From NCBI RefSeq assembly GCF_009649635.1, contig NZ_WJII01000001.1, positions 124,001 to 188,000 of the forward strand: a stretch of 64,000 nt of DNA, given 5' to 3'. The position numbers and the translations under genes were made by a program. Below the pieces are notes generated by a model. That model did not search any database and had not been told where the DNA came from. It saw only the letters and a program-made list of their open reading frames with translations. This document shows, piece after piece, positions 39,989-58,852 of the stretch. The DNA is from Microbacterium sp. SYP-A9085. Its GTDB lineage: Bacteria; Actinomycetota; Actinomycetes; Actinomycetales; Microbacteriaceae. The stretch's first letter is position 1. Each line of letters opens with the position of its first letter.

Positions 39989-40045
39989 CGGTGACCCCGC
40001 TTCAGAGGGCGCTGAGAGCGCCCCTCGCTCCCCGAGCCCCTTCCC

Positions 40046-40179
40046 CGCGAGGCATCCCCCAAATCCGCGAGGCATCCCTTAGATCCGCGAGGCATCCCCC
40101 AAATCCGCGAAGTTCGGGGCTGCCTCGCGAAGTTCGGGGCTGCCTCGCGAAGTTCGGGGCTGCCTCGCGAGAGGCGGGG
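40046..40179. repeat. 20-bp repeat array, three copies plus three inverted copies
   Basis: Six consecutive 20-bp units each begin CGCGA. Units 1-3 (40046-40105) are CGCGAGGCATCCCCCAAATC (unit 2 with three changes). Units 4-6 (40106-40165) are CGCGAAGTTCGGGGCTGCCT, perfectly repeated. The second type is close to the reverse complement of the first (about 16 of 20 positions), so the array can fold into one long stem of roughly 60 bp. It follows the stop of the PLP-enzyme gene. Confidence 0.9.
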
Positions 40180-53938: not shown

Positions 53939-54241
53939 TCAGGACGGCGAACGGCGGCCGGTCTCCTGCTCCCAGAACTCCAGCTGCTGGGTGAGCGCCT
54001 TGGCGAGCTCGAACACCTGCTCGGGAGGGATCCGGATGCGGCTGACGACGCGGGCCGGGACCACGGCCACGCGCTCGCCGGTGTCGGCGTTCGTGTCCTC
54101 CCGTGGAGGCTGCGCGAGCGTCACGAAATCCATCACGAAGACCGTCGGCGTGTGCCAGACGTTCGCGAAGTCGGCGTAGCTTCCGGCGATGTTCTCGGGC
54201 GGCAGATCGATCTCGAACTGCTGCGGCAGGTCCTCGGCCAT
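53939..54241 (-). CDS. DUF3467 domain protein
   Basis: A 100-residue protein: LPPENIAGSYADFANVWHTPTVFVMDFVTLAQPP, then VPARVVSRIRIPPEQVFELAKALTQQLEFWEQETG. This matches DUF3467, small proteins of unknown function found widely and linked in some species to cell-envelope or gene-transfer-associated loci. The ATG is 6 nt after TAGACT. The upstream sequence is the 63-bp repeat array. Confidence 0.88.
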   Translation of the reverse strand: MAEDLPQQFEIDLPPENIAGSYADFANVWHTPTVFVMDFVTLAQPPREDTNADTGERVAVVPARVVSRIRIPPEQVFELAKALTQQLEFWEQETGRRSPS

Positions 54242-54247
54242 GCGACG

Positions 54248-54253
54248 AGTCTA
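54248..54253 (-). promoter_or_regulatory. -10 box of DUF3467 gene
   Basis: TAGACT (minus) ends 6 nt before ATG 54241. Confidence 0.55.
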
Positions 54254-54329
54254 GGTGGCGGATTCGCGGCACACACCGGAGGTGACGGCACGGCCCACGG
54301 GCGCCGGGTCTGCGACGCCCCGCGCGGTG

Positions 54330-54985
54330 TGTGGCAGAACACGCGGCTTTGCGAGGCGACATCCCGCACCTTGTGCGACGCGGTCTTCGGCGGGTCGCAG
54401 AACATGCGGCGTGAGGGCCCGGCACCCCGCACCGTGTGCGACGCCTTGGCGGTGCGTCTCCGAACATGCGGCTTCGCGGCGCTGCATCCCGCACCGTGTT
54501 TGACACGTTCGGCAGCGGCGCCGGCGCGTGTGTTCTGCGACACGCTCCCCAGCCGGTCTCAGAAGATGCGGCCTGACGTGGCCACATCCAGCAGGTTGTA
54601 GGACGCGTAGGGCGGGATGTCGCAGAAGGTGCGGCTACGCGGCCGGACATCCCACATCTTCTGCGACACGTTCCAGCAGAGCGCCGTCGCGCCACTGTAC
54701 GACGCCATCGATGGTGTGTCTCCGAACCTGCGGCTTTCAGCGGTGACATCCCCACAACAAGAGCGACACGCTCCCGAGTCGGTCCCAGAAAATGCGCCTT
54801 TAAGGCGTAGCATCCCGCACCTTATGCGACACGGTCTTCAGCGGGTCGCAGAACATGCGATCTGAGGGCACGGCATCCCGCACCTTGTGCGACACGGTCT
54901 TCAGCGGGCCGCAGAACATGCGGCGTGAGGACCCGGCACCCCGCACCTTGTGCGACACATGGCAGCCCAGACGCCGCCGCGTGGG
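54330..54985. repeat. 63-bp hairpin repeat array (about nine units)
   Basis: Units beginning CATCCCGCAC or variants start at 54360, 54423, 54485, 54585, 54648, 54747, 54811, 54874 and 54937: mostly 63 bp apart, with two 100-bp steps where about 37 bp is inserted. Intact units (first, seventh, eighth) encode a nested hairpin: CCGCA-CC-TTGTGCGAC, a 14-nt loop, GTCGCAGAA-CA-TGCGG. Others are decayed. Because 63 is a multiple of three, spurious open frames cross both strands. There is no unique spacer, so it is not CRISPR. Units 7 and 8 are almost identical. Confidence 0.92.
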
Positions 54986-57900
54986 TTACTCCACGCCGAC
55001 CAGACGGGCGAACGCGCTCAGGCGCGCGACGCCGTCCGGCGTTCGCGGGAGGTCATCGAGCAGGCCGGGGGCATAGACGAGGAATGCGGCCACCTTCGCC
55101 CGCGAGATGGCGACGTTCAGCCGGTTCTGCAGCAGCAGGAACTCGAGGCCGCGCGGCGCATCCTTCCCGCTGGACGCCGCGAGCGAGACGATCGACACGA
55201 CCGCCTCCTGCCCCTGGAACCGGTCCACGGTGCCGACCGGAATATCTGCGAACCCCGCCTCGGCGAGCGCCTGCTCGACCATGACCTGCTGCGCGTTGTA
55301 CGGCGTCACGACGATGATGTCGGCCTGCGTCAAGGGCCGCGGCTGACGCGCCTGCTCGCCGTCGGCGTCCACCCAGGCGCGGCCCAGCAGATCGCGGACG
55401 ATCCGCACCACCTCGGCCGCCTCCTCGGGCGACTGCGTCGCGTTGCCGTGATGCCGGACCGCCACGGGATGCACGCCGGGCGCGACCCCGTCGAGCCGGC
55501 GCAGCGCGGCACACGGATGCGACGCCAGCTCCCCGTCGTAGGACAGCAGCGAGACCGCCCGGGCGACGTCGGGATGCATGCGCCACGACCGGTCGAGGAA
55601 GTGCCCGAGCTCAGGCGGAATGACGGATGCTCCGTCCATGACCCAGCCGAGGGCGGAGGCATCCACCGGCTCCGGATGGATGCCCTGGCTCACCTGTGGC
55701 AGCTGCTGCGGATCGCCCAGCAGCAGCAGACGATCGGATGCCGTTGCCACCGCTATCGTCGAGGCCAGCGAGAACTGACCGGCCTCGTCGATCACGAGCA
55801 GGTCCAGCGACCGGCGCGGCACCCGCCCCGGATGGCTGAAGTCCCACGCCGTGCCGCCCACGACGAACCCGGTCTCGGCGTGCTCTTCCGTGTACCGGGC
55901 GAGCCCGTTCTTCGGGAACACCGTGAAGGACACGTCACCGTCCGCTCCGGCCTTGCGCGCCTTGCCGACCTGCGCCGCGGGGACCCCGGCATCCACGACC
56001 TGATCGAGCATGTGCTCGACGACAGCGTGCGACTGCGCGACCACCCCGACCTTCCAGTGATGCTCGCGCACGAGGGCCGCGATCACGTGCGAGCCGATGT
56101 AGGTCTTGCCGGTGCCCGGCGGGCCCTGGACGGATAGGTGGCTGCGATCCAGGTCGAGGAGTGCAGCGGTGATGGCGCCGATGTGGTCCTCGGCGCGTCC
56201 CCCGGGCAGCGCACCGGATCGGGTGCGGGGCGGACGTCGGCGCAGGATGTCGGTGGCCGGGTCTGCCGGAAGGGCCGGCGCCGCTGCGATCAGCGCGTCC
56301 GCCCATTCCTCGATCGCTGTCTGCTGGTTTCCCGCGCGCGGTGGCGCCGCGGGCGCCAGGGCGACGGGCAGTTCCGACCACGTCTGGCCGTCCATGGCCG
56401 TCTCGGCGACCACCGCGCCGTCGTCGAGGACCTCGAGGACCTCGACCTCCCGCGCCACGTGCACCCATCGCGTCATCGACGGGACCGAGAACGGTGCCGG
56501 CGTCTCGTAGAGGGCGAACGGGCGGGATCCCTCGGTCAGCCGGGTGCCCGGCGCCACCTCGCCGCGCAGTCGCACGATGCGGCGGATCGAGCGCGGACCT
56601 GGCTCCCACTGCTCGACCACGCCGCTGCCCGCGGCATCCACCACCACCACGTCGCGGGTGTCTTCCCACACCGACAGCGGCTCCCGCAGCCGCAGGAAGT
56701 GCATGGCCCAGAACGCCTTCGCCTCGCGCGGATAGTAGTCGATGGCCGCCGCGCCCAGGCGCAGCGCCTCGACATCCGCCTCGGTTCCCCCGGCCGCCTC
56801 GGCCGCGTCGGCGAGGGCACGCAGCTGCTCCGCCTGGGGCTTGGCCTCGTACGCGACCTCGACGGACTCGATGTCCCGCGAGGGCCGCAGCCCGCTCTCC
56901 CGGGCACGCTCGACGAGCCAGTCGCGCAGCCGGCGGGTGGAGACGCAGTCGTAGCGGTTGTAGTCGGCCAGATCGTCGAGCACGGTCTGGGCCGCGACTT
57001 CCCGACCCTCGGCGGCGAGGGCCCGCGCCTCCACATACTTGACGATGGAGTCGTCGCCGCGCTGTACGTCGCTCGTGCGGACCTCGGCGCCCATGTATAG
57101 AGGCTCGAGCTTCTTGATCGAGTACGAGCGAGACCCCACCTTCAGCGCCCGCCGCACGATCGGGTACAGATCCACGAACACGCCGTCGCGCAGCAGCGCG
57201 TCGACCTCGGCCTCGCGCACGCCGTGCCGCGCGGCCATCGCGAGCAGGTGCGTGGGCTCGTACGGCGCGTAATGGTAGATGTGCATGTCGGGATGCTCTC
57301 GCCGCACCGCCTGCACGATGTCGAGGAAGCGCTCCAGCGCCACCTTCTCCTCCGCGAAACTGTGCGCCCACAGGGCGGAATACTCCTCGCGGATGTCGAC
57401 CCACCCGAACAGGTAGTCGATACCCCAGTCGCGGGCAAGCCCCTCGGTGTACAGCGGGTCACCCTCGAAGTCGAAGAACAGGTCGCCCAGGTCGGGGCGC
57501 GGAAGTGCGCCCAGCCCCTTGGGGAAGACGACCTGATACACCGGAACGGCAGGGGATGCCGACGGTTCGTGAAGTCCGGGGATGCCGGCGGGGCTCTCCA
57601 GCTGCAGGCGCGCCTGTGTCCGCAGCATCCCGAACGTCTCGCCGCTCATCCGCGCGGGCGGGGTGGATGCTGCTGCCAGGGCGTCGATCGTGAGGATGCC
57701 GGCATCCCGCAATCGCTCGCGCTGGACCGGGCGCATCCCGGCCACCAGCAGCAGGTCGCGGAACGCGACGACCTCCTGATCGCACGTGGCGCAGCGCCCG
57801 CAGGCGACCACGCCCAGTTCGCCGCGCCCGTCGCCCCAGGCGATCGCGGGGTGGGTGGAACCCTGCGCAAGGTCGCGGTCGGCGACGAGCGCACGGAGGC

Positions 57901-58489
57901 GATCGCGACGCAGCCGGAACACGGGCATCAGGTCGTCCACGGCGTGCGTGCTCATTGTGCCGTCGCCGAGGAGCAGCTCCACCCGATCCGCCCGCGGAAT
58001 GCCGAGCCGATCGAGCTGGTCGGCGTATGCCGCCAGCTGCATGAGTGCGGTGACGCGCGCGTGGCGGGCGAGCTTGGAGTCCTGCACGACCCACCGACCG
58101 TCATCGTCGCGCAGCAGGAAGTCGGCGAATCCGACGAACTCCTCGGTCGCGAACGCGGCCTGGTAGACGACGCGGGTGGCGGGATCGCGCAGCGCGCGTT
58201 CCGTGTCGCGGACAGCATCCGCCAACCCGGCGGCGTCGGAGGACCGCGTCTCGGCGATCTCGATGACGCCGTCGCCGAGGTGGTTTCGGTAGGCATCCAG
58301 CACCCGGCGCTCATGCGCGGTGCCGAGGCGTCCGGCGCGCTCGAGTGTCGCATCCTCGGGATCGGCGACGGCCGGAACGCGGCCGGCCTTCGCGTCGATC
58401 GCCCGCAGCCAGGCGAACTCGCACTCGGCTGCCGCCTTCAGGTCGCTCGCGCTCCAGACGATCCGGCCCTCGTCTTCGATATACCGCAC
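54986..58489 (-). CDS. TM0106-type RecB-like nuclease fused to SF1 helicase
   Basis: A 1167-residue multidomain DNA enzyme. Residues 1-160 hold a RecB/Cas4-like nuclease (FADFLLRDDDGRWVVQDSKLARHARVTALMQLAAYADQL). A Cys cluster CGRCATCDQE near 230 is followed by a small helix-hairpin-helix segment. DLFFDFEGDP near 335 opens an RNase H-like (DEDD) domain. The last 450 residues are a Dna2/UPF1-like SF1 helicase: GPPGTGKT (about 790), LLVIDEAGQFSLAST, LLLGDPQQLPQVSQG, IIVVTPYNAQQ and TVDRFQGQEAVVSIVSL. The GTG at 58489 has AGGGAGAGG; the ATG at 58513 lacks one. The biological role is uncertain. Confidence 0.9.
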   Translation of the reverse strand: MRYIEDEGRIVWSASDLKAAAECEFAWLRAIDAKAGRVPAVADPEDATLERAGRLGTAHERRVLDAYRNHLGDGVIEIAETRSSDAAGLADAVRDTERALRDPATRVVYQAAFATEEFVGFADFLLRDDDGRWVVQDSKLARHARVTALMQLAAYADQLDRLGIPRADRVELLLGDGTMSTHAVDDLMPVFRLRRDRLRALVADRDLAQGSTHPAIAWGDGRGELGVVACGRCATCDQEVVAFRDLLLVAGMRPVQRERLRDAGILTIDALAAASTPPARMSGETFGMLRTQARLQLESPAGIPGLHEPSASPAVPVYQVVFPKGLGALPRPDLGDLFFDFEGDPLYTEGLARDWGIDYLFGWVDIREEYSALWAHSFAEEKVALERFLDIVQAVRREHPDMHIYHYAPYEPTHLLAMAARHGVREAEVDALLRDGVFVDLYPIVRRALKVGSRSYSIKKLEPLYMGAEVRTSDVQRGDDSIVKYVEARALAAEGREVAAQTVLDDLADYNRYDCVSTRRLRDWLVERARESGLRPSRDIESVEVAYEAKPQAEQLRALADAAEAAGGTEADVEALRLGAAAIDYYPREAKAFWAMHFLRLREPLSVWEDTRDVVVVDAAGSGVVEQWEPGPRSIRRIVRLRGEVAPGTRLTEGSRPFALYETPAPFSVPSMTRWVHVAREVEVLEVLDDGAVVAETAMDGQTWSELPVALAPAAPPRAGNQQTAIEEWADALIAAAPALPADPATDILRRRPPRTRSGALPGGRAEDHIGAITAALLDLDRSHLSVQGPPGTGKTYIGSHVIAALVREHHWKVGVVAQSHAVVEHMLDQVVDAGVPAAQVGKARKAGADGDVSFTVFPKNGLARYTEEHAETGFVVGGTAWDFSHPGRVPRRSLDLLVIDEAGQFSLASTIAVATASDRLLLLGDPQQLPQVSQGIHPEPVDASALGWVMDGASVIPPELGHFLDRSWRMHPDVARAVSLLSYDGELASHPCAALRRLDGVAPGVHPVAVRHHGNATQSPEEAAEVVRIVRDLLGRAWVDADGEQARQPRPLTQADIIVVTPYNAQQVMVEQALAEAGFADIPVGTVDRFQGQEAVVSIVSLAASSGKDAPRGLEFLLLQNRLNVAISRAKVAAFLVYAPGLLDDLPRTPDGVARLSAFARLVGVE

Positions 58490-58852
58490 GCCTCTCCCTT
58501 CCGCCTCGACCATACCGACGGCATCCGACAGCCCCGAGCCGGGACCGCCCGCGGACGGCAGCGCGGGGCATCCGACATCCCGTCACGCGCATGCCAGTGC
58601 CGTTCGCGCTGCACCGTTCCGCGTTCGCGCCACGCAATCGCTGGCGCGGATGCCGAAAAGTGCAGCGCGTGCGCAACGACGAGCGCAGCGCGAGCAGAAC
58701 GACGACGCAGCGCACGCTGCCGCACGACGAGCGCAGCGCGAGCAGAACGACGAGCACAGCGCGCGCTACAGCACGAGGAACGCCGCGCGCACCCAATGCG
58801 GAGCCGAGCGCCACGCACCACGACCGCGCACGCCGGGTGCCAGACTGGCACC
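58490..58852. other. Intergenic region with 48-bp tandem duplication
   Basis: The gap between two divergent genes has no supported ORF. Two copies of a 48-49-bp unit that begins ACGACGAGCGCAGCGCGAGC start at 58676 and 58724, sharing their first 29 bases exactly. A 17-bp palindrome abuts the nadE start. The long frames here come from the CAG/CGA-rich repeats. Confidence 0.7.
58836..58852. promoter_or_regulatory. Palindrome overlapping the nadE -10 box
   Basis: GGTGCCAG-A-CTGGCACC is a perfect 17-bp palindrome that touches ATG 58853. The CAGACT box (58841-58846) lies in it, 6 nt from the ATG. A repressor bound here would block a leaderless promoter. Confidence 0.6.

Follow-up and report, generated by a model that had tools for sequence, protein, structure and literature searches.

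Dispersed palindromic arrays in Microbacterium and their association with a Vsr-like nuclease gene: a candidate REP-type system

Background

REP and BIME elements usually exceed 100 copies per genome, and the copying of GTAG REPs into new extragenic sites is held to be the work of RAYT. Two papers on REP/BIME elements with RAYT describe extragenic imperfect palindromes of species-specific sequence which occur as inverted pairs and as alternating head-to-tail clusters and which also flank their cognate gene (PMC2817692, PMC6006769). The CGTC REPs, in which CGTC varies to TGTC, form mostly inverted dimers, and no dedicated transposase is assigned to them in PMC3733652. According to that paper, such an element comprises the tag, an 8–9 bp stem opening with A-T pairs, a 4–5 nt loop and a CCA-like tail, and the five phyla listed as carriers do not include Actinobacteria. 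The only dedicated REP enzymes named in the sections of these papers considered here are HUH tyrosine transposases (RAYT and its kin).

DUF559 is a Vsr-like PD-(D/E)XK domain according to PMC12907096, where VsrA of Caulobacter, a DUF559 Vsr-like protein, is suggested to repair T:G mismatches in connection with a cytosine methyltransferase; palindromes are unmentioned in the main text of that paper. In the literature searched, whose coverage excludes most subscription papers and preprints, nothing evident links DUF559 or Vsr to palindromes or REP. The same literature yielded no REPIN/RAYT in Actinobacteria and, by title, no REP-type elements in Microbacterium.

The locus compared here with these systems is located in a stretch of 64,000 nucleotides from Microbacterium sp. 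SYP-A9085 (contig NZ_WJII01000001.1, positions 124,001 to 188,000, forward strand), termed the window; the genome of this strain is designated G000, and other G numbers denote relatives. The array in this window is probably (rough probability 0.6) a REP/BIME-like palindrome cluster, deposited by a system that a Vsr-like nuclease would maintain or spread.

Results and discussion

Layout of the array

The array of palindromic elements (54324..54957, no strand assigned) has a 63-bp period and alternating arm orientation, with intact ends and a decayed middle. Its six legible two-arm elements are located at 54330..54380 (element 1, 35-bp spacing), 54393..54443 (2), 54618..54668 (3), 54781..54831 (4), 54844..54894 (5) and 54907..54957 (6, the final unit ahead of the helicase stop). 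An initial annotation, made from the letters of the window, had recognized a 63-bp tandem array growing by duplication at one edge. The period of 63 was recovered by Tandem Repeats Finder at 54311-54499 and 54810-54958 of the window, and a direct-repeat search detected 8 copies of 70 nt at 54324-54970, spaced by 62–63 except for wider steps where the middle is decayed. According to Tandem Repeats Finder, similarity among the terminal 2.4 units is 90 %, which fits array growth by duplication at that end.

The array fills, as initially described, the gap of 744 nt between the start of a DUF3467 gene (53939..54241, minus strand; profile match) and the stop of a nuclease-helicase gene (54986..58513, minus strand; matches to AAA_12 and RNase_H_2 and a weak one to PDDEXK_1), both of which are regarded as neighbours only. 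To be added to that description is the common minus-strand orientation of the two genes, the array being faced by the helicase 3' end and the DUF3467 5' end.

An arm approximates CGCANNTTSTGNGACA, and arms follow each other in the order minus, then plus 35 bp on, then minus 28 bp on. Among 158 arms with at most 2 mismatches, taken from 22 G000 sequences, spacings of 35 (58 times), 28 (32 times) and 63 (34 and 33 times) prevail; the arm centres are calculated to lie 32 and 31 bp apart, near three helical turns. The unit is an imperfect palindrome of about 49 bp (47–50) with GTC...GAC ends, whose arms alternate at 35/28-bp steps. No Rfam match was obtained at the array. A scan for intrinsic terminators returned 1 site in the array region versus 0.6 expected, and an intrinsic terminator was accordingly rejected.

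Further repeats of the window comprise two adjoining 20-bp tandem arrays of unlike units (40045-40170; 3.3 and 3.2 copies) and a 23/48 bp tandem repeat (58662-58789) between the helicase start and an NAD synthetase-like gene (named from its translation). Just upstream of DUF3467, at about 54240-54252 of the window, resides CGAGTCTA (gene strand: TAGACTCG), which recurs at this place in most of 18 congener gaps and may represent the -10 box of a leaderless promoter.

Folding and arm sequence

Each unit had initially been considered able to fold as a hairpin. Three window elements were folded as single-stranded DNA: the one at 54618-54669 formed a long hairpin (z -5.56), as claimed, and the other two, with z scores of -1.00 and 0.04, displayed no clear gain over shuffles. 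As minus-strand RNA, the array was no stabler than 20 shuffles (z -0.33), leaving its role as stable RNA unsupported. Single arms formed stems of 4–5 bp where they folded at all. A near-perfect 48-nt hairpin (z -9.70) was found in the palindrome of locus L266 (G204). What had been described as nested hairpins is more aptly regarded as a set of two-arm inverted repeats, of which many have decayed.

Four free positions were analyzed for covariation in 169 motif-chosen 49-mers: one covaries between the arms (89 paired versus 50.5 expected), one is paired below expectation (71 versus 85.7), and two show nothing. For another palindrome type (40 copies from 4 genomes), the free positions yielded p values of 0.02 to 0.99. 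The palindrome is an inverted repeat with internal loops and not a finely conserved stem. Its outer ends are TGTC in 78 % and CGTC in 9 % of 274 ends, GTC itself having been demanded by the scan; GTC is followed by C/T/A/G, C and A, in this order. In G000, arm position 9 favours mismatches (53 opposite versus 21 alike); this preference was inconsistent across other genomes and is therefore probably inherited from one master copy.

Dispersal through genome and genus

By blastn, 36 matches to the array were located within G000, and 19 other genomes yielded none; G000 contains 43 exact copies of the arm and no copy of the reversed pattern. The array is not unique, since the same arms form at least 23 extragenic clusters in G000 (stretches fetched around arm matches). 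A scan of 361 genus genomes for two-arm matches with at most 3 mismatches revealed 88 in G000, 80 in G203, 50 in G655, 32 in G701 and 29 in G709, together with 2–13 matches in 19 more genomes and one match in 15. With the reversed control, 29 genomes had a single match and no genome had more; therefore, only genomes with at least two matches (24 of 361) were taken as positive. Copy number accordingly reaches 88 two-arm matches per genome, with far fewer in many genomes. With a stricter pattern, matches among 398 family genomes were restricted to G000. An exact pattern was detected in Microbacterium fluvii IDR2 alone within a collection of named genomes, which may lack records near the genome of the window.

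At least one arm match was present in 99 of 198 genomes, many congeners having a single CGCATGTTCTGCGACA site. As a conserved element this site was set aside, because in G203, the sole genome inspected, it is situated inside a coding gene, which is presumably that of glutamine synthetase.

Genomic position of the elements

Locations were counted with a retrained gene caller. The 16 genomes contributed 169 hairpin elements, of which 165 are located outside called genes at a coding density of 0.87; the four intragenic ones are isolated single matches, as compared with 6 matches obtained by block shuffling of these 501 kb. The 75 gaps with elements comprise 29 convergent, 40 tandem and 6 divergent ones, versus 45, 247 and 58, respectively, for gaps without elements (convergent versus divergent, p 6e-5). 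Elements lie mostly just past stop codons, and in tandem gaps they are closer to the upstream stop in 34 of 40 cases. This distribution equals that of REPs in PMC3733652. The initial suggestion of a selfish REP-like element is supported by the alternating orientation, the fixed spacing, the extragenic place and the 3'-end bias.

At a second locus, clusters occupy the gap of one gene pair shared by G000, G203 and G655. From this locus and the helicase gap it follows that certain elements have been kept by inheritance, whereas other loci have gained or lost theirs. The latter gap bears on the earlier proposal that the array functionally belongs to the adjoining helicase-nuclease, as its substrate or RNA partner. 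Besides adjacency in G000, this proposal could draw on a two-arm element in the same gap of G203, the genome with the closest DUF3467 (96 % over 100 aa). However, 18 congeners, the best-matching ones in which the two genes share a locus and all of them scorable, have no array in this gap: the helicase-DUF3467 distance is 24–98 nt in 17, and the eighteenth (G706) has an ordinary called gene there and no palindrome. Moreover, 22 other G000 clusters lie elsewhere. Arrays at many unrelated loci had been named beforehand as refuting a tie to the helicase, and the 23 clusters of G000 lie beside various genes. The link is thus refuted by distribution, and the probability of such a partnership is negligible.

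The Vsr-like nuclease

A comparison across species of the genes next to arrays pointed to a single protein family, encoded there in G000, G655, G701 and M. fluvii, in all four with arms on both gene sides; the G000 gene is located on another contig than the window array. The full-length protein has about 300–330 aa. Profile matches at E <=0.01 were obtained with MTES_1575 for 35 and with DUF559 for 15 of 37 homologues. MTES_1575 was taken as Vsr-like PD-(D/E)XK from its Pfam name. The member from M. fluvii scored 35.8 with MTES_1575, below the cut-off of 38.2, and 23.5 with DUF559, above the cut-off of 20.6. The alignment (A1) contains 37 of 60 homologues, the others being excluded because they had internal stops or uncertain starts, were too short or showed low identity. 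Invariant among these 37 are E225, D258, E269, H275, D285 and D287, and nearly so D271; these conserved residues likely constitute the active site.

The front part is weakly AbiEi-like (best E 9e-5, in one of three proteins). NCBIfam contained no model matching any of three members, the PDB yielded no sequence match to the alignment, and a single-sequence structure model attained a mean pLDDT of 35. RAYT (PF01797) was detected in none of 28 genomes, that of the window included, and the same profile matched 5 of 14 control genomes. The elements are short and dispersed and have inverted ends, as would a MITE mobilized by the transposase of an ordinary insertion sequence, the nuclease being a passenger. 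Against such an origin, which is considered very improbable, stands the identity of the bracketed gene, which is the Vsr-like one; the transposase search covered the Y1/RAYT family.

Association of nuclease gene and palindromes in Microbacterium

The G000 protein was searched in 196 + 64 congeners, and the 60 best-scoring loci were kept, which hence are not a random sample. Scores were assigned to 57 loci, L201 and L237 having no usable start and L212 being truncated. The flank scan accepted every GTC...GAC palindrome of suitable length, irrespective of its sequence. In 58 loci, 122 palindromes were counted in the 69.6 kb within 600 nt of the nuclease match, versus 2 in the gene bodies (42.8 kb) and 9 in more distant sequence (104.5 kb); all flanks of 57 loci together contained 135 palindromes versus 2.2 from block shuffles. 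Palindromes on both sides of the gene were observed for 38 of 52 homologues with at least 47 % identity and on at least one side for 50 of 52. The respective figures are 14 and 19 of 20 for homologues with at least 60 % identity, 24 and 31 of 32 at 47–59 %, and 1 and 3 of 5 below 47 %.

The palindromes differ less between the two sides of one gene (distance 0.21) than between genes (0.52), and arm distance tracks protein distance (Mantel 0.61, p 0.0005, n=53). The nuclease gene itself is mostly stationary: 40 of 58 loci belong to one shared-neighbour chain, the others to groups of 7, 4 and 2 or to five single loci. Six genomes without window-type matches carry the type of their own nuclease sides in 13, 13, 9, 12, 17 and 16 copies (gene-flanking ones included; control 0); G204 with its L266 hairpin is one of the six.

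Paralogues of the DUF559 type are widespread, 183 of 196 genomes having some match at 1e-10, so that only closer homologues are informative. At least two window-type elements were found in 8 of 13 genomes with a homologue of at least 60 % identity versus 5 of 183 others (p 3e-8). This Fisher test uses the draw of 196 genomes only; the set of 64, composed of positives from the two-arm scan and 50 others, is non-random. Four element-rich genomes, namely G203 (80), G709 (29; 76 % complete), G118 (12) and G148 (11), yielded no homologue of at least 60 %, for which a lost gene, an incomplete assembly or a different driver would be the available explanations. The dispersed window type differs from the palindromes at the nuclease sides in G110 and G089. 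At L226 (G664), four palindromes reside on each side within 500 nt of the nuclease, in exact 63-nt steps and with arms unlike the window type; the 63-bp period is therefore not peculiar to G000.

AbiEi binds inverted repeats, and the main rival interpretation regards the palindromes as operators: the AbiEi-like front part would bind inverted repeats at its own promoter, the dispersed copies would constitute a regulon or decoys, and the nuclease domain would serve another purpose. It could account for the upstream palindrome about 63–163 nt before the start codon at most loci having one, and it accords with the weak AbiEi similarity. It is nevertheless unlikely, because palindromes also follow the nuclease stop codon in 43 of the 52 homologues with at least 47 % identity, and because the dispersed copies shun divergent gaps (6/75) and favour the upstream stop (34/40 tandem gaps).

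The same 3'-end and convergent bias, together with the layout known for REPs from PMC3733652, would be expected of an ordinary REP-like repeat kept for 3'-end roles (termination, mRNA stability, supercoiling), with the nuclease gene as a favoured landing place. Against such an explanation stand the likeness of the palindromes on the two gene sides and their divergence with the protein, the agreement of genome copies with the type of the local nuclease in 6 of 6 genomes tested, and the terminator scan of the array with its 1 site versus 0.6 expected; it is judged rather improbable.

DUF559 loci outside the genus

A DUF559 probe led to 47 plasmid records, from which 22 loci of Proteobacteria, Cyanobacteria and Deinococcota were chosen for spread; they include close kin (two of A. 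brasilense, three plasmids of one Sphingomonas strain and three Deinococcus hpa loci). A repeat common to both flanks (score at least 18) was found at 11 of 22 loci versus 3 of 132 control windows, all three from Photobacterium (Mann-Whitney 4e-6, kin included), and a flank hairpin (score at least 15) at 12 of 22 loci versus 0 of 132 controls (Mann-Whitney 3e-8, kin included). An extreme case is pSymB of Sinorhizobium meliloti (L308, about 1816-2560), in which inverted 114-nt copies with few differences bracket the DUF559 gene. On several plasmids, short DUF559 genes are embedded amid suf, pnt, hpa and paa clusters as if inserted (L322, L325, L312, L316, L318 and L321).

The consensus of CGTC REPs is CGTCATTGCGAG. 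With this consensus, no repeats of its type were detected closer than 500 nt to the gene at any of 12 plasmid loci, and they were dismissed as the plasmid DUF559 partner; four loci have one two-mismatch match each, farther off than 500 nt. DUF559/Vsr-like nucleases might, tentatively and with the odds somewhat against it, be general partners of RAYT-less REP-type palindromes across bacteria, that is, a second, independently evolved class of enzymes copying or maintaining dispersed palindromes, each with its own family.

Proposed mechanism

In the proposed nuclease-driven system, the putative nuclease would recognize its cognate palindrome, possibly after extrusion of a hairpin or cruciform, and would nick or cut it. 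Repair or replication could then carry copies to further extragenic positions, and arrays could lengthen in tandem at their edge by slippage or unequal repair; the window array would be one such deposit. By position, architecture and co-divergence, it is inferred that the Vsr-like protein occupies the place that RAYT has in REPtrons (PMC2817692, PMC6006769), although its catalytic fold would be unrelated.

Comparison with known systems

With REP/BIME elements the Microbacterium palindromes share the extragenic location, the alternating orientation and a regular spacing, here 35/28/63. As in REPtrons, one gene family is bracketed by the repeat, which here is the Vsr-like gene instead of a tyrosine transposase. 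From the GTAG REP/RAYT systems they differ in their TGTC-like ends, which are not GT[AG]G, and in their PD-(D/E)XK Vsr-like partner, no Y1 transposase having been found in 28 genomes. The frequent TGTC (78 %) and CGTC (9 %) ends resemble those of the CGTC REPs, from which the arms are distinguished by having no 8–9 bp stem that starts in A-T pairs. The nuclease shares with VsrA the DUF559/PD-(D/E)XK type and an equal D-13-D-4-H spacing, residues having been mapped in the present analysis onto VsrA as given in PMC12907096; unlike VsrA, the Microbacterium protein possesses a long front part.

Each nuclease carries a predicted DNA substrate of its own on both gene sides. Taken together, palindromes and nuclease suggest a second, unrelated bacterial route to keep and spread palindromes. 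If a Vsr-type nuclease holds the role of RAYT, the REP lifestyle arose at least twice, and the widespread family DUF559 would gain a function. Should the partnership be general for DUF559, it would offer a possible answer to the seeming want of a transposase for the CGTC REPs.
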